Assembly (NCBI RefSeq): GCF_006351965.1 | Contig: NZ_CP040932.1 | Span: 2,480,001-2,544,000 of the forward strand | Direction: 5' to 3' | Length of the DNA: 64,000 nt | Origin: Oceanicola sp. D3 | Lineage (GTDB): Bacteria; Pseudomonadota; Alphaproteobacteria; Rhodobacterales; Rhodobacteraceae | Shown: in pieces, positions 19,757-33,576 of the stretch | How positions within the stretch are numbered: the stretch's first letter is position 1 | Layout: every line of letters starts with the position of its first letter | Notes under the pieces: generated by a model | Seen by the model: only the letters and a program-made list of their open reading frames with translations | What the model was told of the DNA's origin: nothing | The model's database searches: none | Position numbers and translations under genes: made by a program

Positions 19757-21541
19757 TCAAGCGCAACGGGCAGGCGCCTTCCTTTGCGGCTCTACTTGCG
19801 GAAACTCGATGAAAAAGGTCGTGCCCGCGCCGGGGCTGCTTTCGTAGGTTATGTTGCCTGCCATTTTCGCAGCCAATTGCCTTGAGATGTGCAGCCCGAG
19901 ACCAGAGCCCTGCGTCATGCCGGGGCCCTTGCCGGGGACTTGGTCGAACCGGCCGAACACCTTGCTTTCAAGACCCGACGGGATGCCCCTGCCGTGATCC
20001 CTGATCGAAAGCCGCACTTGCCCATCTGCCGCTTCCAGACGGCCTTCCACAATGCCGCCCTGATGCGAGAACTTGATGGCGTTAGAAACAAGGTTGTCGA
20101 TTATCTGGCGAACGGCGAAGGCATCGCCTTTGATAAGCGTGGCCGTCTCGATACTGCCCTTCGAAAGCTGCACATCGCGCTCTTTTGCGAACATCGAGTT
20201 TTCTTGGAAACTCTCGTCGAGAAGGCTCTCAAGGTCGACCACATCCTCTTCCAGCGATAGCGCTCCGATCTCGAGCTTTTGCGCCAGAAGGATGTTGTCG
20301 ACAAGCCGCGCAAGACGGACACAGTTGCGGTGAGCGATGGTAAGCGGAGCCTTGAGAGGCGGGCTCAAGTCGCCGAGGTGACCGCTCAGCGCCAGCGTCA
20401 GCCCTCCTCTCAGTGAGGTGAGAGGCGTGCGCATCTCATGGCTCACGAAGGAGATAAACTCGTCCTTCGCCCGGTTGGCGTCATCTGCACGTTTCAGCGC
20501 TTGTTCCAGTGCCGAGTTGATCGCGAGGCGATCGGTGATGTCGACAAAGGTGATGCTCCAGCCGAGAACGTTGCCCAGCGGGTCTAGAGGATTTTCAATC
20601 TCCTGAATGCGCGGTTCGTAGACCCGCTGACCAATGGTGAGATGCGGCGAGCTTTCCCTGACCGGGTCCGATCCGTCTTTGGCACGCATGATGGCCTGTA
20701 CAGCGCTCTTCAGCTCGTTCATATCCCGGCGCTTTGCCTCCGAGTTCATGAGCACCACGGCCCCTCGGCGGTCGATCAGCGCGACCGGTTCGCTCATCTT
20801 GTCGAAGAGAACCGATTGGCCGACATTGGCCATGTCCATCGTCTTGCTGGTCATCAGCATCCAGGTGAAGACCAGAATGCCGAGGGTGAACATGAAGGCC
20901 GTCGGGTCCAGCCCGAACACGGTCAGCCCAAGGCCAACATAGGCCGCATTGGTCAGCAGAGGGGTTATGGTGACAAGCGCCAACACAGCGAGAAGCGGCC
21001 ACGCCGTTCGCCTCGCCCGGGTAAAGGCCCGCGCGATGCACACCAGCCCCGCCATCACGAACACATAAAGGCTGGCGATAATCGCAAAGAAGGCGGGCCC
21101 ATGGCTGTATCGTATGGTGTCCTGGCCAGCGGGAATGGCCGTCTCTTCGCCGTAAACCAGATGGTGCCAGGGGTTGGTGGCAGCCACGGCAAAGACCACA
21201 GCCGGCACCACGGCAATCAGGATGCGCAGGCGACTCTTGGCAAACCCACCAGCCTCATTGAGGTAGGCGAATACGAAGAAGCACCAAGCGACAGGTACCA
21301 GCGCATTTCCAAGCCAAGCGAGGGTTGCCCAGGTCATCTGGCAGGAAACGCCAGTCGATGCGGCCTCAAGGCCCACCATCGCAAGGGCCCAAGCGACGCC
21401 GACGAATGTGAGCGCCAAGAACGCCTGACCATTGAAGTGCGGCACCCTCAGCATGCGGATCATCGCAAGGAGTGCGATCAAACTGACCCCGCCTGTCCCC
21501 AGAAAGATCGGGTCCGCAAGCAGTCCTTCCAAACATGTCAT
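19757..21541 (-). CDS. Membrane histidine kinase (7TM-type sensor, PAS, HisKA, HATPase)
   Basis: A 594-residue kinase. About seven hydrophobic segments fill residues ~12-230, as in the histidine-kinase 7TM N-terminal family. A PAS-like region follows around 245-340. The phosphoacceptor is H368 in SFVSHEMRTPLTSLRG. The ATPase domain has N-box NLVSNAIKFS, G1 DHGRGIP and G2 GSGLGLHIS. There is no receiver domain, so it needs a separate regulator; the receiver protein at 21876-22841 is just upstream. The ATG at 21541 is preferred to a TTG at 21556. Confidence 0.92.
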   Translation of the reverse strand: MTCLEGLLADPIFLGTGGVSLIALLAMIRMLRVPHFNGQAFLALTFVGVAWALAMVGLEAASTGVSCQMTWATLAWLGNALVPVAWCFFVFAYLNEAGGFAKSRLRILIAVVPAVVFAVAATNPWHHLVYGEETAIPAGQDTIRYSHGPAFFAIIASLYVFVMAGLVCIARAFTRARRTAWPLLAVLALVTITPLLTNAAYVGLGLTVFGLDPTAFMFTLGILVFTWMLMTSKTMDMANVGQSVLFDKMSEPVALIDRRGAVVLMNSEAKRRDMNELKSAVQAIMRAKDGSDPVRESSPHLTIGQRVYEPRIQEIENPLDPLGNVLGWSITFVDITDRLAINSALEQALKRADDANRAKDEFISFVSHEMRTPLTSLRGGLTLALSGHLGDLSPPLKAPLTIAHRNCVRLARLVDNILLAQKLEIGALSLEEDVVDLESLLDESFQENSMFAKERDVQLSKGSIETATLIKGDAFAVRQIIDNLVSNAIKFSHQGGIVEGRLEAADGQVRLSIRDHGRGIPSGLESKVFGRFDQVPGKGPGMTQGSGLGLHISRQLAAKMAGNITYESSPGAGTTFFIEFPQVEPQRKAPARCA

Positions 21542-21875
21542 CCTGGCCCGCCCCAAACGAAAGTTGTCGTTACGTCAAACACTCGCATCAGGATGTGGTG
21601 AAAGTTCGGCGGTGGATTGTCTTTCTCACCATGTAGGTACCGGCGCTGGCGCTTTGTGCCCAAAATTTGGGTTGCGAAGATGCCGCAATGAGCGGGCGGG
21701 CGGGTTGCTCTGTGCTGGAACTCTGCCTTGCGCAGTTTACAGCTGTGCCCTGCGGATTAGGCGGTGCCCTTACCGGCGCGGCACCGCAGCGAGCGCCGCT
21801 CGGCCCCCGCAAAAACCGGGCCTCCAATGATGGTCCTGTCACACTGCTCTGGGCATCTCGCCAGCGGTAGTGCCG
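21542..21875. other. Intergenic, no gene seen
   Basis: About 330 bp between the response regulator stop and the kinase start, both leftward. It should hold the kinase promoter. I see no convincing coding frame, terminator or repeat. Confidence 0.5.
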
Positions 21876-22841
21876 CTAGGAGTTGACCACGCGAAACCGC
21901 TGTGGCTGAACGGAGCCGCGTTTTTTCTGCCCCCGGCTCTCAGCGCGGGCAATGGCGCGCTCGAAGGTGTGCTTCACGCGCTGGGTCCGGTGCAAACTTG
22001 GGCGGATTGGGTTGCCGATGGAGACATCTATATCAATCGGCTGGCCGTTGTCGTATTCAATCTGCCTCTCCTCAATCATGGCCTGAATCTCGGCTTCCAG
22101 CGGTATCGAGGATTCCATTTCGACCTTGTTGGACACCACTACGAAGGTTCCGTTGCCGGTATAGGCCATCAAGTGCCGGTCAGATGCGAAGGCTCTTGAG
22201 ATGGCATCGGCGACCTCGGAGAGAACGTAGAGAAATTCTTCTCGAGACGCTCTGCTGAAGATGCTCTCGATCGGCTCAACCTTGACGGCCACCACCTGCG
22301 ATCCGGCGATGCCCACGTGGGACAACTGGGTGAGGTAGTTTTGCAGCGCGGTGAAGGTGACGATATCCTCGACGCCGTCGATGGAAACTTCCCGCTCGAG
22401 ACTGACCTCTTCCGCGCCATCATCTTTTGTGTCGCGGGCCAAAGCCAAGGAGCGCTTCGGCAGCCCCTCGATCATCTCTTGCGCCTTCTGGAGCCGGTTG
22501 GCCAATTGCACAATGTCTAACGGCTTGTTCAAGTAGTCCGTAGCCTTGGCCCTGAACGAACGGTCGATGTACTCCTCGGCGGACCTGGCCGTGAGCATGA
22601 TGATCGGGATCTTGTGATAGGTCGGAATGGTTCGAATGAGCGCACAGAGCTCGATGCCGTCCAAGTCGGGCATGCTGATATCGAGCAATACACAGTCGAA
22701 GGTGCTTGGCGCGTTTGCTATGGTTTCCAACGCGCTCGCGCCGGATGACACGGTGGTGATGTCGGAGAACCCGACCTTCCGCACCATGACCGTCAGAAGA
22801 TCGAGAACCACTTGCTCATCATCGACTGCCAAAATTTTCAT
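21876..22841 (-). CDS. Response regulator: receiver plus degenerate GGDEF-like domain (paralogue 1)
   Basis: A 321-residue protein. The receiver has acidic D7/D8, phosphoacceptor D54 in VLLDISMPDLDG and K106 in NKPLD. After a linker, residues ~160-310 follow the order of a GGDEF domain: FTALQNYL, a VVAVKVEP strand, LSEVADAISRAF, then AYTGNGTFVVV where GGDEF should be, then DIDVSIGNPI and FERAIARAES. The signature is TGNGTF (228-233), so cyclase activity is unlikely. Two paralogues with the same layout lie at 25245 and 29199. It lies upstream of a kinase on the same strand. The domain call is by pattern comparison, not a profile search. Confidence 0.85.
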   Translation of the reverse strand: MKILAVDDEQVVLDLLTVMVRKVGFSDITTVSSGASALETIANAPSTFDCVLLDISMPDLDGIELCALIRTIPTYHKIPIIMLTARSAEEYIDRSFRAKATDYLNKPLDIVQLANRLQKAQEMIEGLPKRSLALARDTKDDGAEEVSLEREVSIDGVEDIVTFTALQNYLTQLSHVGIAGSQVVAVKVEPIESIFSRASREEFLYVLSEVADAISRAFASDRHLMAYTGNGTFVVVSNKVEMESSIPLEAEIQAMIEERQIEYDNGQPIDIDVSIGNPIRPSLHRTQRVKHTFERAIARAESRGQKKRGSVQPQRFRVVNS

Positions 22842-23087
22842 GCGCTGCTCTACCCTATTGCGGTCCCTGTTTTGCAGCTAGACTATTTGGGGAATGAGGC
22901 CACAGTAAATACAACTTGTGGCTGAGTTTAGGCATTCACCTTTTCCTAACTGGAAACACTCCAAGGGCCGGAGGGTAGCAGCACGGTTGGCCTCCGGAGG
23001 CGCCAAAAGCCGAGGTGCATGCCTCGGTCAAAAAGCGGCTCGCGAGCGCGGGCTGCTAAATGGAAACCCACACCGCATCGGCGAGAG

Positions 23088-24686
23088 CTACGCGTCGAGG
23101 TTTTCAGGAAAGTTCACTGTGAAAGTTGTCCCCACGCCGGGCGCAGTTTCGAAGGCGATGGTCGCGTCGTGGTGCTCAAGGATCATCCTTGCGATGCCAA
23201 GGCCGAGGCCGGAGCCGGAATGGCCGCTGGCGTAACTTTCCGGCGCTCGGGTGAATCTTTCATATAGGCGGGATTGCAGCTCTGCGGGTATGCCGGAGCC
23301 GTGGTCGCGCACCCAGAACCCGGGCTGCGTTTCGGTTAGACCGATTTCGACACGGCTCCCGTGCTCCGAGGCCTTGATCGCGTTTGACAACAGATTGTTG
23401 AGCACTTGAACCAACCGTATCTCGTCGCCTTGGATTTCGCACTGCCCGGCCGCGCCGGGCACCACGCTCACTTCCACGCCATATTGCGCCGCGAAGGGCT
23501 GAATATCGTCCCGCGCTTGTGCCAAGAGCGTCGTAAGGTCGACCAGGCGAAGGTTTGGTTTGCCCCGCCCGGTACTGAGGCGCTCGAAGTCCAGAATATC
23601 CCGCACGAGCCGTTCCACACGCTTCAGGTTCCGCGCGGCGATGTCGAGCGTGGGTTGCAGAGCGGGGGATAGATTGTGCTTTTCGGCCTGTAGCAATTGA
23701 ACAGCAGCTTGGGCCGAGGTGGTTGGCTGGCGCAGCTCGTGCGAGACAGTGGAAATAAGCTCTTCGCGCGCTGCCTCTACAGCCTTTTGCTGCGTTATAT
23801 CGCGGATGACACCCAGCACACCAAGCCGCTGACCACCCTCCTCATTGAGAGGGGCGATGAAGATCTCTGCGTTGAAATTCTCACCCGACTTGCGCCGGGC
23901 TATCATTTCGAGGCGGTCAGTGCCGGCGCGCCGCGCCTCGCGATAAATGGTTTCGCCCTGCTTCCTGTACGACTCCGGGTCAGTGTAGAGCATCGCAGTT
24001 GTTTGGCCGAGCATCTCTTCCCGCGAGCGGCCAAAGGTGCTTACGGCTGCGCGGTTGACCCGGGTGATGCGGCGCTCTTCGTCGACGGTCAGGATCGCGT
24101 CAGGCACGGTATCGACAATGGCATCGAGCACCATTGTCTTGTCGGCAAGTTCCCTCGCCCTGCGGTCCTTCAGCGCCTCCTGCCCCAGCCAGCGGCCAAG
24201 GAGATCGACGAACTCGGCCTCCTGCGGCGTAAAGGGTGACCGGGCATCGGGCCCAGAGAAGTTGAGCGTTCCAACCCGATCACCGCCTACTCGTATCGGC
24301 ACTCCAATGTAGCTTTCGAGTTCAAAGGAAATGTAACAGGGGTGCTCCGCGATCTCCGACTGACCGGCATGGTGGAAGTGACGCACGCCGTCGGACGAGA
24401 AGGTGTGAGAGCAGTAGGTCTCCGCCAGGCGAAATTCGGTGCCCGCTGTAGGCGCCCAGTCGGGGCCTCTCACTTGGTCGATCGTATAGGTATCGCCCTC
24501 GACCCGGCTGACGATTCCGAGTGGAAGCCCGAATGCCGCGCAGCCGATCCCCAGCAGCTTGAAGACCTTGGTTTCAAACTCGATGTCCGGATCGAGCGAC
24601 AGAAAGAACAGCTGACGAAGCGCAAGGTTGTGCCGCTCGATATCGCAGGCCCGATCTTCGGGTATTTTCTCAACTCGGTTCAGCAC
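23088..24686 (-). CDS. Soluble histidine kinase (GAF, PAS, HisKA, HATPase)
   Basis: A 532-residue cytoplasmic kinase with no membrane segments. A GAF domain occupies residues ~25-175 (with AETYCSHTF and SYIGVPIRV). A PAS domain follows at ~185-300 (VPDAILTVDEERRITRVN, then GVIRDITQQK). The phosphoacceptor is H316 in STVSHELRQPTTS; the usual RTP is RQP here. The ATPase domain has NLLSNAIKAS, DHGSGIP and GSGLGLGIA. It lies 211 bp after the HPt gene and 246 bp before the next response regulator, all on one strand. GAF proteins bind small ligands or chromophores; the ligand is unknown. Confidence 0.92.
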   Translation of the reverse strand: MLNRVEKIPEDRACDIERHNLALRQLFFLSLDPDIEFETKVFKLLGIGCAAFGLPLGIVSRVEGDTYTIDQVRGPDWAPTAGTEFRLAETYCSHTFSSDGVRHFHHAGQSEIAEHPCYISFELESYIGVPIRVGGDRVGTLNFSGPDARSPFTPQEAEFVDLLGRWLGQEALKDRRARELADKTMVLDAIVDTVPDAILTVDEERRITRVNRAAVSTFGRSREEMLGQTTAMLYTDPESYRKQGETIYREARRAGTDRLEMIARRKSGENFNAEIFIAPLNEEGGQRLGVLGVIRDITQQKAVEAAREELISTVSHELRQPTTSAQAAVQLLQAEKHNLSPALQPTLDIAARNLKRVERLVRDILDFERLSTGRGKPNLRLVDLTTLLAQARDDIQPFAAQYGVEVSVVPGAAGQCEIQGDEIRLVQVLNNLLSNAIKASEHGSRVEIGLTETQPGFWVRDHGSGIPAELQSRLYERFTRAPESYASGHSGSGLGLGIARMILEHHDATIAFETAPGVGTTFTVNFPENLDA

Positions 24687-24897
24687 AAAACCTCCTCCCC
24701 CTATACCATTGCAACAAGCTGCGGAATTCGGCGCGAACCTGTCAATAACTCTTTCATCTTACGGTTGAAATCACGGAGCCAGAGTGGTGCCAGCGTGACA
24801 GGCGAACTGCAAAATGCAGGGCTTTCAGAGCCAGTCGCGTATGCACCCGCACAAATGCCGCCCGGGCTGCCGCTTTATCTGAACGGACTTCGGATAG

Positions 24898-25245
24898 TCA
24901 GGAATTGAGGGCTTGATACATTTCCGACACGAGTTCGCCAGCAAGATGCGAAAGATCTGTGCCGGTGCTGTCATTTGATATCTCGACCTCAAGCTTCAGC
25001 GCTGTTTGCCCCAGTTTGGGAAAGCTGAGCGTTTCAGCAACACCGAAGATCCGGTGCGCGCGGCGTGCCAAGCCATCGGCAACCTCTAGCCGTGCCGCTT
25101 GGGCTTCGAGGGCGCAGTAATTCTCGAAGGCTTCGATATGCTCGGGCAGAGAGCTCAAGAAGGCCATCCGGACAGGCGCGAGCATTTGGGCGAAGTCGTT
25201 CTGGGCCGATTCTGACGGTCTGTGCGACCGGTACGTGCTGCTCAT
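24898..25245 (-). CDS. HPt-domain phosphotransfer protein
   Basis: A 115-residue, mostly helical protein. The segment ARRAHRIFGVAETLSFPKLG followed by QTALKLE matches the HPt active helix, with H64 as the phosphoacceptor. The canonical Lys after the His is replaced (HRIFG rather than HxLKG). Its ATG overlaps the stop of the response regulator gene at 25245 (ATGA), so receiver and HPt are translationally coupled. It could shuttle phosphate between the kinases and receivers of this island. Confidence 0.8.
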   Translation of the reverse strand: MSSTYRSHRPSESAQNDFAQMLAPVRMAFLSSLPEHIEAFENYCALEAQAARLEVADGLARRAHRIFGVAETLSFPKLGQTALKLEVEISNDSTGTDLSHLAGELVSEMYQALNS

Positions 25246-26189
25246 CAGGCGAACCTTTTTCTGGCGAATCCCTGCATGGCCGGACGGGCGCGCGCGGAAC
25301 TCAGGGTTTCCTCAATGCTCTCATCAATCGTCCGCCGGGAAAAGAAGGAACCGCGTGTGGGCTTGCCTACCCTTACGACGGGGGCGCAGTTGATGAGATA
25401 GGTTTCCTGGTAGGCCTCGAGCGCGGTGTTGATCTGGTTTTCCAGTTGCTCTTGCGAAGCAAGGTGGATTGCCGAGGTTACCGCCATGAACTCACCCGAG
25501 CCGGCATAGGCCACGAGCAGGTTTTGAGATTTCATCGTATCCACAATCACCTCAGCAACATCGGCCATGATGTCGAGGAACTCCTCATCATTTGTGCGCA
25601 CGTAAATGTTTGCGGCGTTCTCGACACTCAGGCCGATGCGCTGGCTGATCGAGTAACGCGGACGCCCGACGGCCTTCAGGTAGTTGCGCAACGCGGTGAA
25701 GGAGATCAGCCCTTTTACATCAGGCGGTGTTTCGGCGTCTTCGAAGTCGAGTTGGTGCTGGTGGGAGGTCACCTCTTCCAGCTGATCCTTGATCGCGGAA
25801 GCCCGAAGGCGGCTTTCGTGCACGCGCCGGATCGACGCGAGGCGAGTCTTGAATTCGAGGTTGTCGAGCGGCTTGGTAATGTAGTCCACCGCGCCCGCCA
25901 TGAAGGCATCGTCGATGTACTGGCGACCGGACATGCCGGTGACCATGACGATCTGGGAAAGGCCTTCCGGGTCCATCGCACGCAGAATCCCGGTGAGCTC
26001 AATACCGTTCATCTCGGGCATCTGGATGTCCACAAAGATGCAGTCGAAGGGTGCCGCCTGCTGGCTCACCAGCCTCAGGGCCTCCGGCCCCGATGCGGCC
26101 ATCGCGAAATCATCGATATTATTATGCTGGAGGACGGCCTCGAACGCCGCCCGGAAGATAGGATCGTCGTCTACTGCGAGGATTTTCAT
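25245..26189 (-). CDS. Response regulator: receiver plus degenerate GGDEF-like domain (paralogue 2)
   Basis: A 314-residue paralogue of the 21876 and 29199 proteins. The receiver has D7/D8, phosphoacceptor D54 in IFVDIQMPEMNG and K106 in TKPLD. The C-terminal domain has FTALRNYL and AYAGSGEFMAV, so the GGDEF position reads AGSGEF (229-234). The ATG at 26189 has GGAGAAG seven bases upstream and is preferred over an upstream in-frame start. It is followed without gap by the HPt gene and preceded by a kinase gene 132 bp away on the same strand. Confidence 0.86.
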   Translation of the reverse strand: MKILAVDDDPIFRAAFEAVLQHNNIDDFAMAASGPEALRLVSQQAAPFDCIFVDIQMPEMNGIELTGILRAMDPEGLSQIVMVTGMSGRQYIDDAFMAGAVDYITKPLDNLEFKTRLASIRRVHESRLRASAIKDQLEEVTSHQHQLDFEDAETPPDVKGLISFTALRNYLKAVGRPRYSISQRIGLSVENAANIYVRTNDEEFLDIMADVAEVIVDTMKSQNLLVAYAGSGEFMAVTSAIHLASQEQLENQINTALEAYQETYLINCAPVVRVGKPTRGSFFSRRTIDESIEETLSSARARPAMQGFARKRFA

Positions 26190-26321
26190 CAATCTTCTCC
26201 TTCTAATCAAGTGTACCCTAGGAGGCGATTGAGGCGAAATTTGGATCGCCCATAAGTTGCGAGCAGTTTTTTGAAGTTTTTCTCAAGACGTCTGGAGCTT
26301 GCCGCACGAGCGCAGGATTGG

Positions 26322-27842
26322 TCAGCTGGCGGCGACGCATTTCGTAACAAGGTCGTCGGCTTCTGCCGCTTCTGCCGAAGGGTCCAACCTTGCAGGCTTC
26401 CCCTCCTCATCGTCATCGGCGAGGTCCAGATCGAAGTAGAAGGTCGTACCGGCGCCTTCATTCTTTCGATAGTCGATGGAGCCGTTGTGAGCCTGCATTA
26501 TCTGCTTTGAAATGTTCATGCCGAGACCCGTGCCACCGATTTTGCGGGTGTCGGACGAGTCGACTTGGCTGAATTTGTCGAACACGCGCTCGCGGTCATG
26601 GTCGGCAAGGCCGGGGCCTACGTCGATCACCGACACCCGCGCCCGCCCCTCCTCGACCGTCAGACGCACGCGAACCTGGCTGCCCTCAGGAGAGAACTTG
26701 GCCGCGTTGGACACGATATTGGTAAGCACCTGCTCGATACGCGCCGAGTCTCCCACCACCGGCAGATGATCGGCTTCCGCCTCGCAGGTGAGCCGCACGC
26801 CCAAGCGTGCAGCAAAGGGAGCGTTGGCAGCAACGGACTGCTCCACCAAATCTCGCAGGTCGAACCGTTTCATATTGAAGGGCATGCGTCCCGCCTCGAT
26901 CTTCTGAAGGTCGAGAATTTCATCAATCAGCTCGATCAATCGGGTGCAGTTGCGCTTGGCGATGCCCATCACTTGTTCAGCCTTTTCGCTGATCGGGCCC
27001 AAGTGTCCGGCGTGGGTGAGGTCGATAGACCCCTTGATCGACGTCAGAGGCGTGCGAAGTTCGTGGCTCATCGTCGAGATGAACTCGCTCTTTGCCTCGT
27101 AGCCCTGCTGGGCTTTGTTGTTTTCGACCGTCAGAGCTTCCATCTGCTCAAGGCTGCGTTGGTAGAATGACAGGTAGATCCGCGAGCAATCGATCACGAA
27201 ATACAGCACGAAGAGGCTGGTGAAGAGATGCGCCCAAAGCTCCGACTGAATCGTCGCACCCGTGACCCAGATGTCATAGATCGGAATGAAGAGGAACGTC
27301 GCCCCGTACATGCCGATCCGGACAACGAGGATGGGCAGGATGTGGTGGTTGTTCATGGCCGCGAAGAGCGCTGCAGCGAACAGGAAGAACAGCGACATGA
27401 AGTGCGTTCCCGGCCCTTGCGCCAAGGCGATCGCGATAGAATAGAAGACTATGACCGAGGCGCTGAGCACCGTTCCAACATAAAGCTGGTTTAGGAGGCG
27501 TCGTGCCACGGCTGCGTCGCGCCCGTCCCACACGAGGATGCGCTTGAAGACCGTGAAGTCGTAGATCTCCGACAAAATGATAAGGGCGCCGGTCATCAGA
27601 GCGAGCGCGATGCTGTAGTAATAGCCTGCCAGTCCAAGGGCAGCCGCAAAAATTATCTGCCGCTGCCAAACGAGCTTTCGTCCGACCTCGGCATAATCCT
27701 TCATTTGCTTGGCCCGGACCACGTTCTTTCGCGCTCCGAGTCCCAGCCCTTCTCGTTTGGCTTCTTTCGTCAACCTGCCTCTCCGAACCTCGGCGCAGGG
27801 GTCATTACCTGCGCTTGAACGGTGCCTTTCCGACACACTCAT
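26322..27842 (-). CDS. Membrane histidine kinase (multi-TM sensor, HisKA, HATPase)
   Basis: About 506 residues with five or six hydrophobic segments between residues ~58 and ~225. The phosphoacceptor histidine (H260 from this start) lies in STMSHELRTPLTS. The ATPase domain has NIVSNAAKFS, DVGPGLAD and GGTGLGMNIS. There is no receiver domain. The sensor part is not one I recognise. The start is uncertain: 27842 is the longest ATG reading; a second ATG at 27704 (MKDYAEVGRK) just before the membrane region is equally plausible, and neither has a strong ribosome-binding site. Confidence 0.85.
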   Translation of the reverse strand: MSVSERHRSSAGNDPCAEVRRGRLTKEAKREGLGLGARKNVVRAKQMKDYAEVGRKLVWQRQIIFAAALGLAGYYYSIALALMTGALIILSEIYDFTVFKRILVWDGRDAAVARRLLNQLYVGTVLSASVIVFYSIAIALAQGPGTHFMSLFFLFAAALFAAMNNHHILPILVVRIGMYGATFLFIPIYDIWVTGATIQSELWAHLFTSLFVLYFVIDCSRIYLSFYQRSLEQMEALTVENNKAQQGYEAKSEFISTMSHELRTPLTSIKGSIDLTHAGHLGPISEKAEQVMGIAKRNCTRLIELIDEILDLQKIEAGRMPFNMKRFDLRDLVEQSVAANAPFAARLGVRLTCEAEADHLPVVGDSARIEQVLTNIVSNAAKFSPEGSQVRVRLTVEEGRARVSVIDVGPGLADHDRERVFDKFSQVDSSDTRKIGGTGLGMNISKQIMQAHNGSIDYRKNEGAGTTFYFDLDLADDDEEGKPARLDPSAEAAEADDLVTKCVAAS

Positions 27843-27970
27843 AGGCAGAGTACGGGGATGACGTGGCAAAAATATGGCGCCAGCATACAACAATACGAAT
27901 AGTGGTTCGTGGGCTGTCTACGAAATGCTGGGGAAAAAATGCATCATTCACACGGTCATGACCTGACCAA

Positions 27971-27994
27971 AGCTCAGAGGGTCTTCCCTGAGCT
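27971..27994. promoter_or_regulatory. Dyad upstream of the LuxI-type gene
   Basis: AGCTCAG (27971-27977) and CTGAGCT (27988-27994) are exact reverse complements with a 10-bp spacer. The dyad is 113 bp before the AHL synthase start, in the divergent region shared with the kinase gene. It differs from a canonical lux box. A regulatory role is inferred only. Confidence 0.4.
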
Positions 27995-28106
27995 CGTGAC
28001 ACCGGGAGTTGTGAAACATTTCGCGCTAGAGCGCACCGTAAAGCCGCAGCCGCGAGCGCAGAGCGGGCCGAGGTTGCCCTTGGCTGGCGGTCTTCAGGCT
28101 ACATCC

Positions 28107-28700
28107 ATGTCGGTCGAAACGATGCATCTGCATGGCAATCTGATCGTGAACTACCTCAAGGCACGGCGACAGGTCTTCATCGTGTCGAAGGGTTGGCAAC
28201 TCTCCGAAACCCGGGGCATGGAGTTTGATCAATACGACACCCCCGAGGCACGGTGGATCGCCGTTCACGAGGATGGCGAGGTACTGGCCGGCATACGCAT
28301 CGCTCCCACCACGGCACAGTGCGGGCTACATTCTTACATGATCCGCGATGCGCAACTGGGGCTGCTCAAGGGGCTCCCACTCGATCCGCTTTTCGAGGAG
28401 GCGCCAGTGTCAGACCAGATCTGGGAGGCCACTCGCCTGTTCCTGCTCGATACGGTGCCTGCGCAACGACGCGCCGAGGTGCAGCGCCTGCTCATGTTGA
28501 AGATGGCAGAGGCGGCCCGTGCGGAAGGTGCCCACAGCGTTATCGGAATCGTTCCGGCGGTCTTCCAGCGCTGGCTGAAGAGGATCGGCATGGAGGCCGT
28601 GCCCATGGGGCCACGCTTCGAGCTCGATGGTGATCGCTCGCAGGCCGCAATGTTCAACGTCAGCATGGCCCCGCCCCCCCATTCACCTGAGGTCAACTGA
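28107..28700 (+). CDS. LuxI-family acyl-homoserine-lactone synthase
   Basis: A 197-residue autoinducer synthase that should make an acyl-homoserine lactone from S-adenosylmethionine and an acyl-ACP or acyl-CoA. Nearly all invariant LuxI residues are visible: R20/R21 and F24 in LKARRQVFI, W30, D41 and D44 in EFDQYD, R64 in GIRIAPT, E107 and R110 in WEATRLFL. The ATG at 28107 gives the normal LuxI N-terminus; an upstream start at 27909 or 27939 would add unrelated residues. No LuxR-type AHL receptor is encoded next to it. Its neighbours are histidine kinases and response regulators. Confidence 0.9.
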   Translation: MSVETMHLHGNLIVNYLKARRQVFIVSKGWQLSETRGMEFDQYDTPEARWIAVHEDGEVLAGIRIAPTTAQCGLHSYMIRDAQLGLLKGLPLDPLFEEAPVSDQIWEATRLFLLDTVPAQRRAEVQRLLMLKMAEAARAEGAHSVIGIVPAVFQRWLKRIGMEAVPMGPRFELDGDRSQAAMFNVSMAPPPHSPEVN

Positions 28701-28793
28701 GCTTACCGCTCGGTCATATCTATGCTATCGTTCCACCAAAGGTTTAGTGTGTGACTAGGAAGGTGCTTCAAAAACTACGGAAATATTGACTGG

Positions 28794-29198
28794 ATGACTG
28801 ATCCTGCAACGGCCCGCCCGCGCGTACTTCATGTGGACGATGACGACGACATTCGCGCAATTACACAGATTGCTCTGGCAGTGGTGGGTGAACTCGAGGT
28901 TCTTCAATGTTCCAGTGGGCTAGAGGCTCTGGAAGTCGCGCAGGAATTTTCCCCCGATATCCTTCTGCTGGATGTCATGATGCCCGACATCACGGGAGAA
29001 GAAACTCTCGCCGGGTTGCGCCAACTCGACGGTCTCGCTGATGTCCCGGTCATCTTCATGACGGCGAAGGCACATTCTGACGACGTAGAGCACTTGATGC
29101 AACTCGGCACGCAGCGTGTCATTGCAAAGCCCTTCGACCCGCTCACGCTAGCGTCGGAAGTGGTCGAGATCTGGCAACAGAGCGCAAACGAGGCCTGA
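28794..29198 (+). CDS. Single-domain response regulator (CheY-like)
   Basis: A 134-residue stand-alone receiver. The acidic cluster is VDDDDD near residues 15-19, the phosphoacceptor D60 in LLLDVMMPD, the switch Thr in FMTAK, and Lys in IAKPFD. There is no output domain. It lies 93 bp after the AHL synthase on the same strand and may be cotranscribed. Its stop codon abuts the stop of the convergent response regulator gene with no spacer. It may serve as a phosphate sink or intermediate with the HPt protein. Confidence 0.92.
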   Translation: MTDPATARPRVLHVDDDDDIRAITQIALAVVGELEVLQCSSGLEALEVAQEFSPDILLLDVMMPDITGEETLAGLRQLDGLADVPVIFMTAKAHSDDVEHLMQLGTQRVIAKPFDPLTLASEVVEIWQQSANEA

Positions 29199-30257
29199 TC
29201 AGGCTTCGGGCGGCGTTGGCCTCGGGCGCCGGGTGCCCCCCAGGCGCGGTCGGCGTGGAACGATGATGCCATCGCGCCGCTTGGTCTGATCGATTTCCAG
29301 TTGCAGGCGACGCATCAGGCGCTCTTCGGTGGCGCGCGCAATGGCGGTGCGCAGGGTCTGCACGCATACCTTGCCCGGCTCCACCTTGGGCCGGCGCGTT
29401 CGGCTCATGGTCACGCGGATGTTCTGCGGCCCATTGCCGAAGACGTCGGTCTTCAGGTTCCAGAACTCCAGCCTGGTCACGTCGACCTCCAGATTGCGCC
29501 GGCCATTGCCCAGCACCACGCAGCCGAAAACACCGCTTCCGACGTAGGAGATGAAGTGCTGACTGGAGGCCAGTTTTGCGGAGATGTTGCCTGCAACTTC
29601 GGTCAGCAGCGCGTTGAACTGTTCGGCGGTGCTATTGCGATAGATGTCCTGAATACCCTCGATGCGCAGGGCGAAGACCTCGGTGGCGACAGTCGTCTTG
29701 GGCAAAAGCTCAAGCATTTGCTCAAGATCGCGATCGGGCATGCAGGCTGCCACGCCTTGGATGGTGAACCCCTCATCGAGCGACCTGCGCGCCAGCGTTT
29801 CCAGCCGGGACGCGAGCTGCGCGGCGGATCGCTCGAGGCCAACCGACCGTCGCATTTGCTCGGCCAGTAGACGGGCTGTGCGTATGCGGGCCCCCAGCTC
29901 GAGGCCGCGGATCGGCTTGGTCACATAGTCCGAGGCGCCCGCATCGAAAGCCCGTTCGATCGAAGCGTCATCAAGCTTGGCCGTGAGCATGAGGATCGGC
30001 GTTATGCGATAATCCGGCAGAGCCCGGACCTTGCCGCACAGCTCAATACCGTCGATACCGGGCATAGCGATATCGAGCAAAACGCAGTCGAAGGGCTGCT
30101 TGGCCTCTGTGATCTTTTGCATTGCGTCTTGCGCGTGGAGCGCAGTGTCCAGATCTTGATAGCCGGCTTCGGCGAGGACAGTCCGCAGCAGCTGCAAGAA
30201 GGTCTCGTCATCGTCGACTGCAAGTATCCGCAAATCTTGCTCCCTCATCTCGTCCAT
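29199..30257 (-). CDS. Response regulator: receiver plus degenerate GGDEF-like domain (paralogue 3)
   Basis: About 352 residues. The receiver has D62 in VLLDIAMPGIDG and K114 in TKPIRG. The C-terminal domain keeps FALRIEGIQDIY, LLTEVAGNISAKL and SYVGSGVFGCVV, so the GGDEF position is VGSGVF (239-244). It has a basic proline-rich tail (RRPRLGGTRRPRPTPPEA) absent from the other two paralogues. The ATG at 30257 follows GGGGATAAGG closely; ATG at 30248 is an alternative. It ends back-to-back with the CheY-like gene. Confidence 0.84.
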   Translation of the reverse strand: MDEMREQDLRILAVDDDETFLQLLRTVLAEAGYQDLDTALHAQDAMQKITEAKQPFDCVLLDIAMPGIDGIELCGKVRALPDYRITPILMLTAKLDDASIERAFDAGASDYVTKPIRGLELGARIRTARLLAEQMRRSVGLERSAAQLASRLETLARRSLDEGFTIQGVAACMPDRDLEQMLELLPKTTVATEVFALRIEGIQDIYRNSTAEQFNALLTEVAGNISAKLASSQHFISYVGSGVFGCVVLGNGRRNLEVDVTRLEFWNLKTDVFGNGPQNIRVTMSRTRRPKVEPGKVCVQTLRTAIARATEERLMRRLQLEIDQTKRRDGIIVPRRPRLGGTRRPRPTPPEA

Positions 30258-30865
30258 CCTTATCCCCAGCAAGCCCTCTGAAATGAAAAATCCCCCATTG
30301 CGCGTTGCGGCTGGGGTTCACTAACGCAAAAGTTGTATGAAGAATCTGTCATAAGTCTGGCTGGATTGAGCCCTTTCTCGGCGGGTTGCGTAGGGGAAGG
30401 CGGAGGTTGCGCACATCCAAGGCGCCAGCCCGAGCGATACACCCGTGGGGGCCCCCAGGTTTGGCACAGGATCAGGTCACCAGATTGGTGCGGTCATGAG
30501 GTCTTGAGACTACCGGCGCTCGGCCGTTCAGCAAAGCCGACGAAAAACGAGAAAATCCGGCCGCGACTGGATGGGGAGAAACGTTTCTCAAGGGGAAATG
30601 GCGGAGGATATGGGCCTGACGTCGAACCTTCTCTCGACCTTAAGCCGTCATTGTCGTTTGGGAGGGTCACGGTTCGACGCTCAGCCGATTGAAACGCGAC
30701 AGGTAGCGGAATTGATCAAGAGCGGCATCATCCCCATTTCGATTTTGCCTGCATTCGTGCCTCGGCCAGCGTCATGTATCTCGCATGCACGACACACCGA
30801 CAGCGCAAAGCCGCTAGCAGTGCCAAGAGTTAAACGCACGCTGCCAGGGCAATCATTTAGCGAAA
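30258..30865. other. Gene-poor stretch between signalling island and EPS cluster
   Basis: About 600 bp without a supportable gene. It holds the upstream region of the response regulator and the left copy of an ~87-bp repeat (30551-30636). The short frames here show no family similarity. Confidence 0.6.
30551..30636 (+). repeat. Direct repeat, left copy (tRNA-3'-end-like)
   Basis: The ~86-bp block starts GAAAATCCGGCCGC and ends near GTCGAACCTTCTC. It matches 44421-44509 in the same orientation over its full length by eye, with long identical runs GGATGGGGAGAA and TGGCGGAGG. Read on the minus strand, 30599-30628 has a T-loop-like TTCGA and ends CTCCGCCA as tRNA 3' ends do, but the T-stem does not pair. 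The two copies bracket the EPS cluster. Confidence 0.7.
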
Positions 30866-32128
30866 CTAAGCGCGGGCGTTGATGACTTCGCGTAGGTGCA
30901 CCCCGAGCAGCACGAGGCCCGGCCAAAGCATATAGGCTTCGATCTCGATGTTCTCGCCAAACGAGAGCAGCACCATCGTCATCAGGATACCAAGCGGCAG
31001 CCTCCCGCGCGGATGGCGCGCGGCGTCGATGAGCGCGAAACCCACGTGCCACGCAAGCGGCACCAGCAGCGCGAAGAACCCGACCAGCCCCTTCACGAAG
31101 AGCAGCCCGAACCACGTGTGGTGGCTGCCGATCGGCATGTATTCCACCGCGTGCGAGCCGGGATGCACGGTGCCGTGGCCAAACCAGGGAGCCTCGTTCT
31201 CCCAGCGTTCGCGGGCGATACGCTGGAGGGTTTCGCGCACCCGCGTGCTGTCGGCCCGCGCGCCTTTGAAGGCCGAGACGGCATCGGCCGCCAGCGTCAT
31301 CAGGGTGGTGCCGACGACTGCCAGCGAAGCGGTCAGCGCCGCCGTGACCTGCCACGCCCAGCCGCGCAGGATCAGTGGCAGCATCCGCGGGGCCACGGTG
31401 CAGGCCACCAGCCCCACCAGCCCCATGCGGGACTTGGAGGCGAGGATCATCAGCACCCCCGCCGCCACGCCCGCCGCCATCCACCGCCGGTCTTTCTCTT
31501 CGAGCGCGAAGAGCACCATGATAACCCCGAGCAGCGCTGCGAAGGGTGACCAAGGCGCATAGAACTGCCAACGCGGGGTCCAACTCGCCGGATCCCATGT
31601 GAAGAAGTACACGCTGAAATACTCCGGTCCCGGCCCGCCGATGGCCTTGAGCGGCGAGGTGAAGATGCGCTCGGGCAGGCCGATGTAGGGGGCGGCCAGC
31701 AGCACCGGCGCGAGCGCGAGGGTCCAGAGCCCGACCACGCATTGGCCCCGGATCAGAACCTCGCGGCGAATTTGCAGCACCGCCCCGGCCAGCGGAAACA
31801 GCGCCAGCAACGCCCAGCCTTTGGCCCAGCCGATGGAGCTCTTGATCGTTTGCTTCAGGCCGAGGCCCCAGTCGAGGTGGCCAATCCAGAGCGCCACCAG
31901 CATGACCGCCATGCCGGTGAACCACGCCCAGACAAGGGCGGGCACCGGCCCGGTCGGGCGCAAGTCGGCACGCATTGCCGGCCCGAGATAGAGCGCCAGC
32001 GCTGCCAGCCCGCCGAGCAGCCATGCCAGCACCGGCCCGACCACATAGAGCGCACCCACCGCGTAGAACGGCCAGGTCCAAACAAGCGTCTTGTAGACCA
32101 TCCGCTCGGGGCCGGTGAGCCCGGTCAT
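30866..32128 (-). CDS. O-antigen/EPS polymerase-like membrane protein (Wzy/WaaL family)
   Basis: A 420-residue inner-membrane protein with about ten hydrophobic segments. A large polar loop at roughly residues 280-330 contains WFGHGTVHPGSHAVEY and IGSHHTWFG, the pattern of Wzy_C/O-antigen ligase proteins. It should polymerise lipid-linked repeat units on the periplasmic side. Its ATG overlaps the stop of the co-polymerase gene by four bases, so polymerase and length regulator are coupled. Confidence 0.82.
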   Translation of the reverse strand: MTGLTGPERMVYKTLVWTWPFYAVGALYVVGPVLAWLLGGLAALALYLGPAMRADLRPTGPVPALVWAWFTGMAVMLVALWIGHLDWGLGLKQTIKSSIGWAKGWALLALFPLAGAVLQIRREVLIRGQCVVGLWTLALAPVLLAAPYIGLPERIFTSPLKAIGGPGPEYFSVYFFTWDPASWTPRWQFYAPWSPFAALLGVIMVLFALEEKDRRWMAAGVAAGVLMILASKSRMGLVGLVACTVAPRMLPLILRGWAWQVTAALTASLAVVGTTLMTLAADAVSAFKGARADSTRVRETLQRIARERWENEAPWFGHGTVHPGSHAVEYMPIGSHHTWFGLLFVKGLVGFFALLVPLAWHVGFALIDAARHPRGRLPLGILMTMVLLSFGENIEIEAYMLWPGLVLLGVHLREVINARA

Positions 32129-33576
32129 GCGCGCGCATCCGGGCCGGGTTCGGGCCGCGCCAGCAGGCGGCCGATCAGGGCCCCGCGCATCCAGCCCAGC
32201 AGCAGGCCCAGCAGCATCATGAAGGTCGCCGCCACCCCTGCGGCCAGAGCCAGCTTGCGGTTGGGGGATGAGGGGGTCTCGGGCAGCGAAGGGTTCTCCA
32301 GCACCTGCACCAGCGGGTAGGAGGCATAAACGTCAGACTTGGTCGACTGAGCCTTGGCGATGGCGCTTGCAAAGACCGCCTCGGCCACGGTGAAGTCGCG
32401 CTGCAGGTCCTGCAACCGGGCTGCGGGGGCGGCCAGCCGCTTCTGCTCGGCCAGCTCGCCCTCGAGCCGGGCCGAGAGCGTCTCGTGCTGCCGGGCCACG
32501 CCCGCGCGCTCCGCCTCCATCCGCACCAGCTGAGCCAGCAGCTCGGCGCGGGCGCCGTCGGGCGCGAGGTCGAGAGCGGCCAGATCGGCCTCGCCCAGCT
32601 CGGTCACAGTAATCGCACGGGCAAGAATCGCTCCCCGCGCCGAGGCATGGGCCGCACGGGCCACTTGCACCTTGGGGTGACCCTCGCCGTAGGCCGAGCG
32701 TGCCTCGGCCAGCGCCGCTGCATGGGTGGCGGCCTCTTCGGTGAGCGCGGTGAACTCGGCATCGGCGTAGAGCTTCAGCGTTGCCGCGGCGGCGCTTGCG
32801 GGCACACCCAGCGTGGCTTCGAGCGCGGTCACGCTCTGGATCTTCTCGCTCAACGTGGCCTCCACGTCACGCACCCGGCTCTGCAATTGGCGGGTTTCCT
32901 CTACCATCGCGTCATATTGGCCGGGCGAAATCAGACCGGTTTCGTCTTGCAGCGCGGCGATGTCCTCCCGGGTCGCGGCCACCGAGCTTCGATATTCGGA
33001 GATCGCGGCAAGGCCGCTGTCTTCGCGCGTGGCCATCTCGTCGGCGCGCAGCGCGTCGATCTCAGCGAAGAAGGCTGCGATCAGCGCATCGCCGCGCGCC
33101 TGCGCTGTTTCCGGGCTGCCGCCGGCCATCTCGACGTGGATCAGGCTGGTCTGGTCAACGAGGTTGATCCGCGGGGCGCCGAACTCGCGGCGGTTCATCC
33201 CCATCGCGCCCGCGGCGGCATCCACGATCCGGTCGGCCCCGATCAGGCGCTTGTAGGTCTCGGTCGGGCTGACCGCGTTGCTGGCGAAGGCGGAGTTGGC
33301 ATAAGAGGAGGCCTGCCCGATCCCGTTGAGGTTCATGGAGGCCGAGGCACCCGAGCCGGGGAGGATCAGCGAGGCCGTGGATTTGAAGGTGAGCGGCGCG
33401 GTCTTCAAATAGCCCGTGATCGGCGCCCAAATCAGCGCCCCACCCATCAGGGCGAAGGCAAGATAGCGCGGAAACCGCCCGAGATCTCCGATCCGCCCAC
33501 CCAAGAGAATGCGCTTGCCGGTAAGGCGGCGCTTGCGGGCCGGTCTGGTGGCGTGAAACGTGTCTTGCAGGGTCAT
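32125..33576 (-). CDS. Polysaccharide co-polymerase (Wzz/ExoP-type, no kinase domain)
   Basis: A 483-residue chain-length/export protein. It has an N-terminal membrane segment near residues 38-58, a long periplasmic region with coiled-coil character (residues ~150-420) and a C-terminal membrane segment (LALAAGVAATFMMLLGLLLG) after a proline-containing PSLPETPSSPNRK. It stops ~27 residues later, so the cytoplasmic tyrosine-kinase domain of Wzc/ExoP is missing. No separate kinase or Wzb phosphatase lies in the window. It is the first gene of a two-gene unit with the polymerase. A TATCC/GGRTA dyad lies ~94 bp upstream. Confidence 0.88.
   Translation of the reverse strand: MTLQDTFHATRPARKRRLTGKRILLGGRIGDLGRFPRYLAFALMGGALIWAPITGYLKTAPLTFKSTASLILPGSGASASMNLNGIGQASSYANSAFASNAVSPTETYKRLIGADRIVDAAAGAMGMNRREFGAPRINLVDQTSLIHVEMAGGSPETAQARGDALIAAFFAEIDALRADEMATREDSGLAAISEYRSSVAATREDIAALQDETGLISPGQYDAMVEETRQLQSRVRDVEATLSEKIQSVTALEATLGVPASAAAATLKLYADAEFTALTEEAATHAAALAEARSAYGEGHPKVQVARAAHASARGAILARAITVTELGEADLAALDLAPDGARAELLAQLVRMEAERAGVARQHETLSARLEGELAEQKRLAAPAARLQDLQRDFTVAEAVFASAIAKAQSTKSDVYASYPLVQVLENPSLPETPSSPNRKLALAAGVAATFMMLLGLLLGWMRGALIGRLLARPEPGPDARA

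Follow-up and report, generated by a model that had tools for sequence, protein, structure and literature searches.

The signals of LuxI-family synthases are classically read by LuxR. The locus described here raises the question of what reads such a signal when the luxI gene has no luxR beside it and lies among histidine kinases instead. The locus is in a 64,000-nucleotide stretch of Oceanicola sp. D3 (contig NZ_CP040932.1, positions 2,480,001 to 2,544,000; assembly GCF_006351965.1), hereafter the window, whose numbering is used throughout. Nine open genes with assigned domains occupy 19757-30272 (open reading frame calling and Pfam): the leftward genes HK1, response regulator 1 (RR1), HK2, HPt, RR2 and HK3, the rightward LuxI and CheY-like genes and, leftward again, RR3. 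We report that one of the kinases, HK3, accompanies this luxI lineage in place of LuxR, and we consider that the core of the island is probably a signal synthase-receptor pair made up of LuxI and HK3.

The preliminary description of this stretch had listed three kinases without receivers, three receiver-output paralogues, an HPt protein, a CheY-like protein and a LuxI homologue lying together without LuxR, with six leftward genes in the order kinase, receiver, HPt, kinase, receiver, kinase. This inventory is borne out by the open reading frames and Pfam domains, and the order is that of transcription, i.e., HK3-RR2-HPt-HK2-RR1-HK1. The lack of LuxR in the island is likewise confirmed. The 4.05 Mb contig encodes three LuxIs and three LuxRs, and all three LuxRs map elsewhere: the other two LuxIs each have an adjoining LuxR, and the third LuxR, a solo about 216 kb off, is the nearest to the island.

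The luxI-HK3 gene pair

Three features make up the center of the island:

26322..27704, minus strand: HK3, kinase with a six-transmembrane (6TM) sensor, HisKA and HATPase but no REC; the candidate receptor of the acyl signal (open frame up to 27893).
27864..27878, plus strand: element TGGCAAAAATATGGC, spaced GG-N10-GC, in the promoter region from which HK3 and luxI diverge; enriched in upstream regions of HK3-linked luxI.
27939..28700, plus strand: LuxI-family N-acyl-homoserine lactone (AHL) synthase (PF00765), extended at the N terminus by about 50 residues that include an FPELxP-like motif; the open frame begins at 27909.

Alignment with relatives indicates that HK3 probably starts at 27704 and LuxI probably at 27939. 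The LuxI protein scores 52.2 bits to Autoind_synth (PF00765; cut-off 24), and R86, F90, W96, D107, D110, R130, E173 and R176 (alignment numbering) are invariant in its alignment with relatives.

The linkage of the two genes was followed in a first family sample of 198 Rhodobacteraceae genomes, a larger family set of 395 genomes and a sample of 385 genomes drawn from the class. Among the 198 genomes, the closest LuxIs (~50-57% identity) adjoin an HK3 orthologue and usually also a member of the RR family. In named genomes we counted 62 loci of this LuxI lineage with full flanks and took HK3 as linked if no more than 6.5 kb separates it from luxI; this holds for 58 of the 62, at a median distance of 210 bp and in several orientations, while a recognisable RR is found at 41 and a similar CheY at 19. 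Oceanicola sp. m2 (L097), nearest among the named relatives, retains HK2-HPt-RR2-HK3-luxI-CheY-RR3. The idea that the six-gene island is conserved as a unit was rejected: other relatives keep HK3 and luxI with varied RRs, and only Oceanicola sp. m2 keeps the fuller set. When plasmids were searched at the nucleotide level, the island gave partial kinase matches only; the match in Roseovarius THAF9 is an ATP-binding kinase gene with no synthase annotated near it.

These counts bear on two earlier expectations. Free separation of the kinases and LuxI in related genomes had been named as grounds for giving up a functional link; HK3 stays with luxI, and the rest of the island does separate, in that the RR count and the presence of HK1, HK2, HPt and CheY differ from genome to genome. 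The same variability would be expected if duplicated two-component genes had come to lie around luxI by chance, the nine genes sharing no pathway. We regard such an accident as very improbable, since the HK3-LuxI-RR core recurs across dozens of genera in several gene orders and the only three full-length RR-family members of the genome all lie inside the island.

The second expectation was that signal production may be tied to a branched phosphorelay rather than to a LuxR loop. A kinase in the place of the adjoining LuxR is supported: across 60 family LuxI loci, LuxR adjoins none of the 17 HK3-linked luxI genes and all 43 of the unlinked ones (Fisher p 2.6e-15). Three named loci (L151, L160, L176) have no HK3 and an adjoining LuxR instead, and at L175 a separate LuxR-LuxI pair lies about 8 kb from the HK3-linked luxI. 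In the LuxI tree the LuxR-linked proteins form one clade nested among the HK3-linked ones, and the grouping of every HK3-linked LuxI into one clade is mildly rejected (approximately unbiased test, p 0.03), which suggests that HK3 was swapped back to LuxR in the LuxR-linked clade, with the direction left uncertain by long outgroup branches.

The two kinds of LuxI also differ in sequence. The median number of residues before the LuxI core is 57 if the gene is linked to HK3 and 3 if it is linked to LuxR, and an FP(E/D)LxP-like motif in this extension is seen in 49 of 84 HK3-linked LuxIs and is lacking in LuxR-linked ones; a possible role of the extension (27939-28090 in the window) is that of a docking segment. 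Upstream of luxI, the element TGGCAnAACTATGGC (TGGC-N7-TGGC, with GG-N10-GC spacing) is present on the luxI strand in 15 of 83 HK3-linked cases, where about 1.3 are expected, against one on the reverse strand of that set and none at 48 LuxR-linked loci. In sequence, the element is similar to a -24/-12 promoter with an atypical -12 half.

The HK3 sensor domain and a second neighboring synthase

Residues 1-203 of HK3 (27096-27704) form the 6TM domain, in which the segment HFxPLFFLFAAALFAAMNNH is strongly conserved. The domain matched no Pfam family and no sequence relative in the PDB. It is present in 52 of the 395 family genomes and, among the 385 genomes drawn from the class, in none outside Rhodobacteraceae. 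Its AlphaFold2 model (pLDDT 91) has six helices of transmembrane length and a long exit helix. A Foldseek search with the model gave no match below E 0.8. By VIA, the model is closest to the 6TM anchors of cyclases, i.e., ImcA (Z 10.3), AC9 (10.2) and Rv1625c (7.5), a likeness that is suggestive at most, as a Z of about 10 between helical bundles can reflect a common arrangement.

If HK3 reads the product of LuxI, the two proteins may be expected to diverge together in the part that meets the ligand. LuxI distances correlate with those of the HK3 transmembrane domain (r 0.75); the partial correlation is 0.57 with the kinase domain held fixed, and for the kinase domain it is 0.12 with the transmembrane domain held fixed (half-sample means 0.55 and 0.09, respectively). 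The pattern fits ligand-receptor co-divergence, though part of it comes from shared history.

This result also bears on the direction of signal flow. The kinases may sense the environment and the relay may control luxI expression or LuxI activity, so that production is gated and the signal itself is not sensed by the island. Such gating would agree with the conserved element upstream of luxI in the divergent promoter region and with the other sensor domains carried by HK1 and HK2; it fits poorly with the co-divergence of LuxI sitting in the sensor rather than the kinase domain of HK3, and with the island regulators, in which Pfam recognised no DNA-binding domain. We judge it improbable. The tie between signal and phosphorelay thus stands as far as a kinase replaces the adjoining LuxR, and the evidence favors HK3 sensing the signal over a relay controlling its production.

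HK3 relatives are not confined to luxI. Among 51 strong HK3 copies, luxI is no more than about 4 kb away in 34 cases, and in seven a gene for an N-acyl amino acid synthase of the FeeM type (feeM; matches to PF21926 at E 1e-33 to 1e-41) is no more than 2 kb away. Strong FeeM matches occur in only eight of the 395 family genomes, seven of them no more than 2 kb from HK3, and the FeeM-linked HK3s are divergent copies without LuxI. A methyltransferase belongs to the cluster at all seven FeeM-HK3 loci: an ICMT/PEMT-type enzyme between HK3 and feeM at L206, L208 and L225; a class I enzyme at L205, L207 and L224; and, at L223:3852-5441, a single 529-residue frame directly upstream of the HK3-type kinase in which a class I methyltransferase (78-268) is fused to FeeM (326-483). 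In a separate plasmid collection, 12 records carry the 6TM domain. Five of these have an adjoining feeM (two from Loktanella salsilacus and three from Sulfitobacter); the other seven are from S. pontiacus or close Sulfitobacter, and both of the two that we opened have a LuxI gene 175 bp away.

We also noted that a cassette of HK3-type kinase, ICMT/PEMT-type methyltransferase and FeeM, the latter two overlapping, occurs at L206:9897-12740, L208:7767-10741, L225:5510-8404 and L234:4745-7540 (a Loktanella salsilacus plasmid). At L226 and L227 (genomes G590 and G622), HK3-type kinases are found with RR and HPt and no synthase near; G622 encodes a luxI-linked HK3 as well, its synthase-less HK3 being a second copy. 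Possibly, the synthase-less copies at these two loci are eavesdropping receptors.

Because HK3 adjoins LuxI in place of the usual receptor and its relatives adjoin a second kind of acyl-signal synthase, it probably represents a novel kind of acyl-signal receptor. The simplest common thread, we infer, would be that HK3 reads whichever N-acyl signal its neighbor makes. For the island itself, we think it quite likely that HK3 binds the LuxI product. The wider proposal is that HK3 founds a new membrane receptor family for N-acyl amino-type signals, limited to Rhodobacteraceae in the samples searched, which reads AHLs if paired with LuxI, and that AHL sensing in this LuxI lineage moved from the cytoplasmic LuxR to a membrane kinase, with LuxR later regained according to the tree; this we favor by a somewhat smaller degree, a little above even.

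Besides the caution given above on helical bundles, several observations weigh against assigning the signal to HK3. At least one LuxR is encoded somewhere in all 26 HK3 genomes tested, so that the signal could be read by a LuxR at a distant site as well. Neither luxI nor feeM adjoins ten of the 51 strong HK3 copies, some of these being at contig ends or second copies, and at L228:2177-5045 an HK3-type kinase without a nearby synthase stands beside two overlapping LuxR-type genes, in one of which the DNA-binding domain was not detected. The RR family also occurs without HK3. The four-step relay considered below is not a fixed part of the system, as CheY and HPt are detected in a minority of loci.

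The first of these points opens the most serious alternative, i.e., that a LuxR from another site, either the solo one or those belonging to the other two luxIR pairs, reads the AHL of this LuxI, and that HK3 is a neighbor with another ligand. The genome does have three LuxRs to offer, and responders at distal sites have been suggested for orphan LuxI signals in a survey of roseobacters (PMC3824088). A distal reader would leave three things to be accounted for: HK3 and LuxR exclude each other as neighbors of luxI, LuxI co-diverges with the sensor domain of HK3, and HK3 relatives pair with FeeM as a second acyl-signal synthase. We therefore hold it to be unlikely, less so than gating, and keep HK3 as the proposed receptor.

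Putative relay parts and regulator outputs

The remaining features of the island are as follows:

19757..21556, minus strand: HK1, HisKA_7TM-HisKA-HATPase kinase without receiver (PF16927 E 7e-35); a variable part of the island.
21876..22841, minus strand: RR1, REC (E 2.4e-26) with degenerate GGDEF (E 1e-4), motif AYTGNGTF.
23088..24686, minus strand: HK2, soluble GAF-PAS-HisKA-HATPase kinase without receiver (Pfam); Oceanicola sp. m2 (L097) orthologue at 62% identity.
24898..25245, minus strand: HPt, stand-alone, phospho-acceptor motif AHRIFG (PF01627 E 9e-7).
25245..26210, minus strand: RR2, REC (E 1.8e-24) with degenerate GGDEF, motif AYAGSGEF.
28794..29198, plus strand: CheY-like single-domain receiver (REC E 6e-24), on the luxI strand downstream of luxI.
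29199..30257, minus strand: RR3, REC (E 2.6e-26) with degenerate GGDEF, motif SYVGSGVF; the open frame extends to 30272.

A Pfam domain scan found REC absent from HK1, HK2 and HK3. The His, N-box and G-box motifs of the kinases, the HPt His and the REC Asp motifs are all intact, and the REC pocket (D7, D8, D54, T84 and K106 in RR1 numbering) is invariant across 22 aligned related RRs. The RR family is the most constant downstream part, as it is carried by all 25 HK3 genomes of the 198-genome sample, vs 26 of the 173 others. A dedicated family of free HPt proteins with an H(K/R)-x-x-G motif recurs at related luxI loci.

In the C-terminal half of the RRs, Pfam detects very little: GGDEF is seen at the E value listed above in RR1, and PF00990 gave no match in RR2 and RR3. 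The AlphaFold model of RR1, built from 70 homologues (pLDDT 90), matches the GGDEF domains of DosC and WspR (Foldseek E ~1e-7, with DosC at 1.7e-7; TM-score 0.58-0.65). In all three RRs the GGDEF motif is replaced by GxGxF, of which G90 and G92 are invariant over the 70 homologues and F94 is kept in at least 90%. By alignment and model, RR1-3 are response regulators with a predicted pseudo-GGDEF output rather than normal diguanylate cyclases; with the GGDEF catalytic residues lost, they would be unable to make cyclic di-GMP (c-di-GMP), and active c-di-GMP signaling was rejected as the output on this ground.

In the mechanism we propose, LuxI would make an N-acyl-homoserine lactone that the 6TM sensor of HK3 detects in place of LuxR. 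The signal would shift the kinase/phosphatase balance of HK3, and phosphate would go to the receivers encoded nearby. Since the kinases have no receivers of their own and both CheY and HPt occur as free proteins, the path would run, as in a Spo0 layout, from HK3 to the CheY-like receiver, to HPt and on to the REC-pseudoGGDEF regulators; this order is tentative, at somewhat less than even, and direct transfer from HK3 to the RRs is the alternative. HK1 and HK2 would feed other inputs into the same regulators. As for the output, the regulators may act through binding of partner proteins or of a nucleotide, the least certain of the steps proposed here, at well below even.

Just past RR3, at 30866-33576, the window has polysaccharide genes that by sequence are O-antigen-ligase-like and Wzz-like; no counterparts of these were matched at related luxI loci.

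Comparison with known systems

If HK3 is indeed the receptor, a LuxI line with a membrane-kinase receptor changes the reading of AHL circuits in an abundant marine group. Many marine Rhodobacteraceae have this kinase next to the quorum-signal synthase in place of the usual DNA-binding receptor. In the literature searched, we found no report of receptor exclusivity, sensor-domain co-divergence, the pseudo-GGDEF regulators, the HPt family or the FeeM-methyltransferase pairing, and on kinase-linked orphan luxI genes nothing beyond a 2013 survey, to which we return below.

The Spo0 phosphorelay runs Kin-Spo0F-Spo0B-Spo0A. In domain content only, it resembles the window in its receiver-less kinases, free receiver, free phosphotransfer protein and REC-output regulators; the window differs in having a canonical HPt instead of Spo0B and outputs without a DNA-binding domain. 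The Vibrio LuxM/LuxN-LuxU-LuxO system is alike in that an acyl-HSL (acyl-homoserine lactone) synthase adjoins a multi-transmembrane receptor kinase and HPt and response regulator parts are present. Unlike in Vibrio, the synthase here is of the LuxI family (PF00765) rather than LuxM/AinS, the kinases lack the receiver that LuxN carries, and the outputs are degenerate GGDEF domains rather than a sigma-54 activator such as LuxO. HK3 as a LuxN orthologue was rejected given the different synthase and the missing receiver.

The CqsS/LqsS kinases share with HK3, as modeled, a 6TM sensor that a long helix connects to the histidine kinase part. CqsS is a quorum receptor that can substitute for the Rv1625c anchor (PMC4821796), and the modeled fold of HK3 has its best structural matches, suggestive as they are, among cyclase anchors of the kind that CqsS can replace. 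HK3 differs in its partner, which is LuxI or FeeM and not CqsA/LqsA. FeeM and a methyltransferase together would supply the activities that methyl esters of N-acyl amino acids require, and Loktanella salsilacus is among the carriers of such a cassette. From the FeeM-methyltransferase cassettes, the window differs in having LuxI and not FeeM.

The closest precedent is the survey of Cude and Buchan (2013; PMC3824088), cited here for its treatment of roseobacter orphan luxI genes (I-delta), whose topologies H, I and J have an adjoining kinase gene. A LuxN-like two-component link for orphan luxI was already proposed there. So far as this part of the survey goes, the orphan luxI genes were noted without an assigned receptor, a role for which we propose HK3, and a shared 6TM domain is not reported. 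These topologies resemble the window in that luxI lacks a neighboring luxR and has the gene of a histidine kinase upstream of it, HK3 of the window being divergent from luxI. Ruegeria TW15 (topology J; L170) is 47% identical to the window in LuxI and 41% in HK3, and R. nubinhibens ISM (topology I; L105) is 55% and 56% identical, respectively. Relative to topologies H, I and J as described in that part of the survey, the window has, in addition, an HPt, a CheY-like protein, two further kinases and three regulators of the REC-pseudoGGDEF type.

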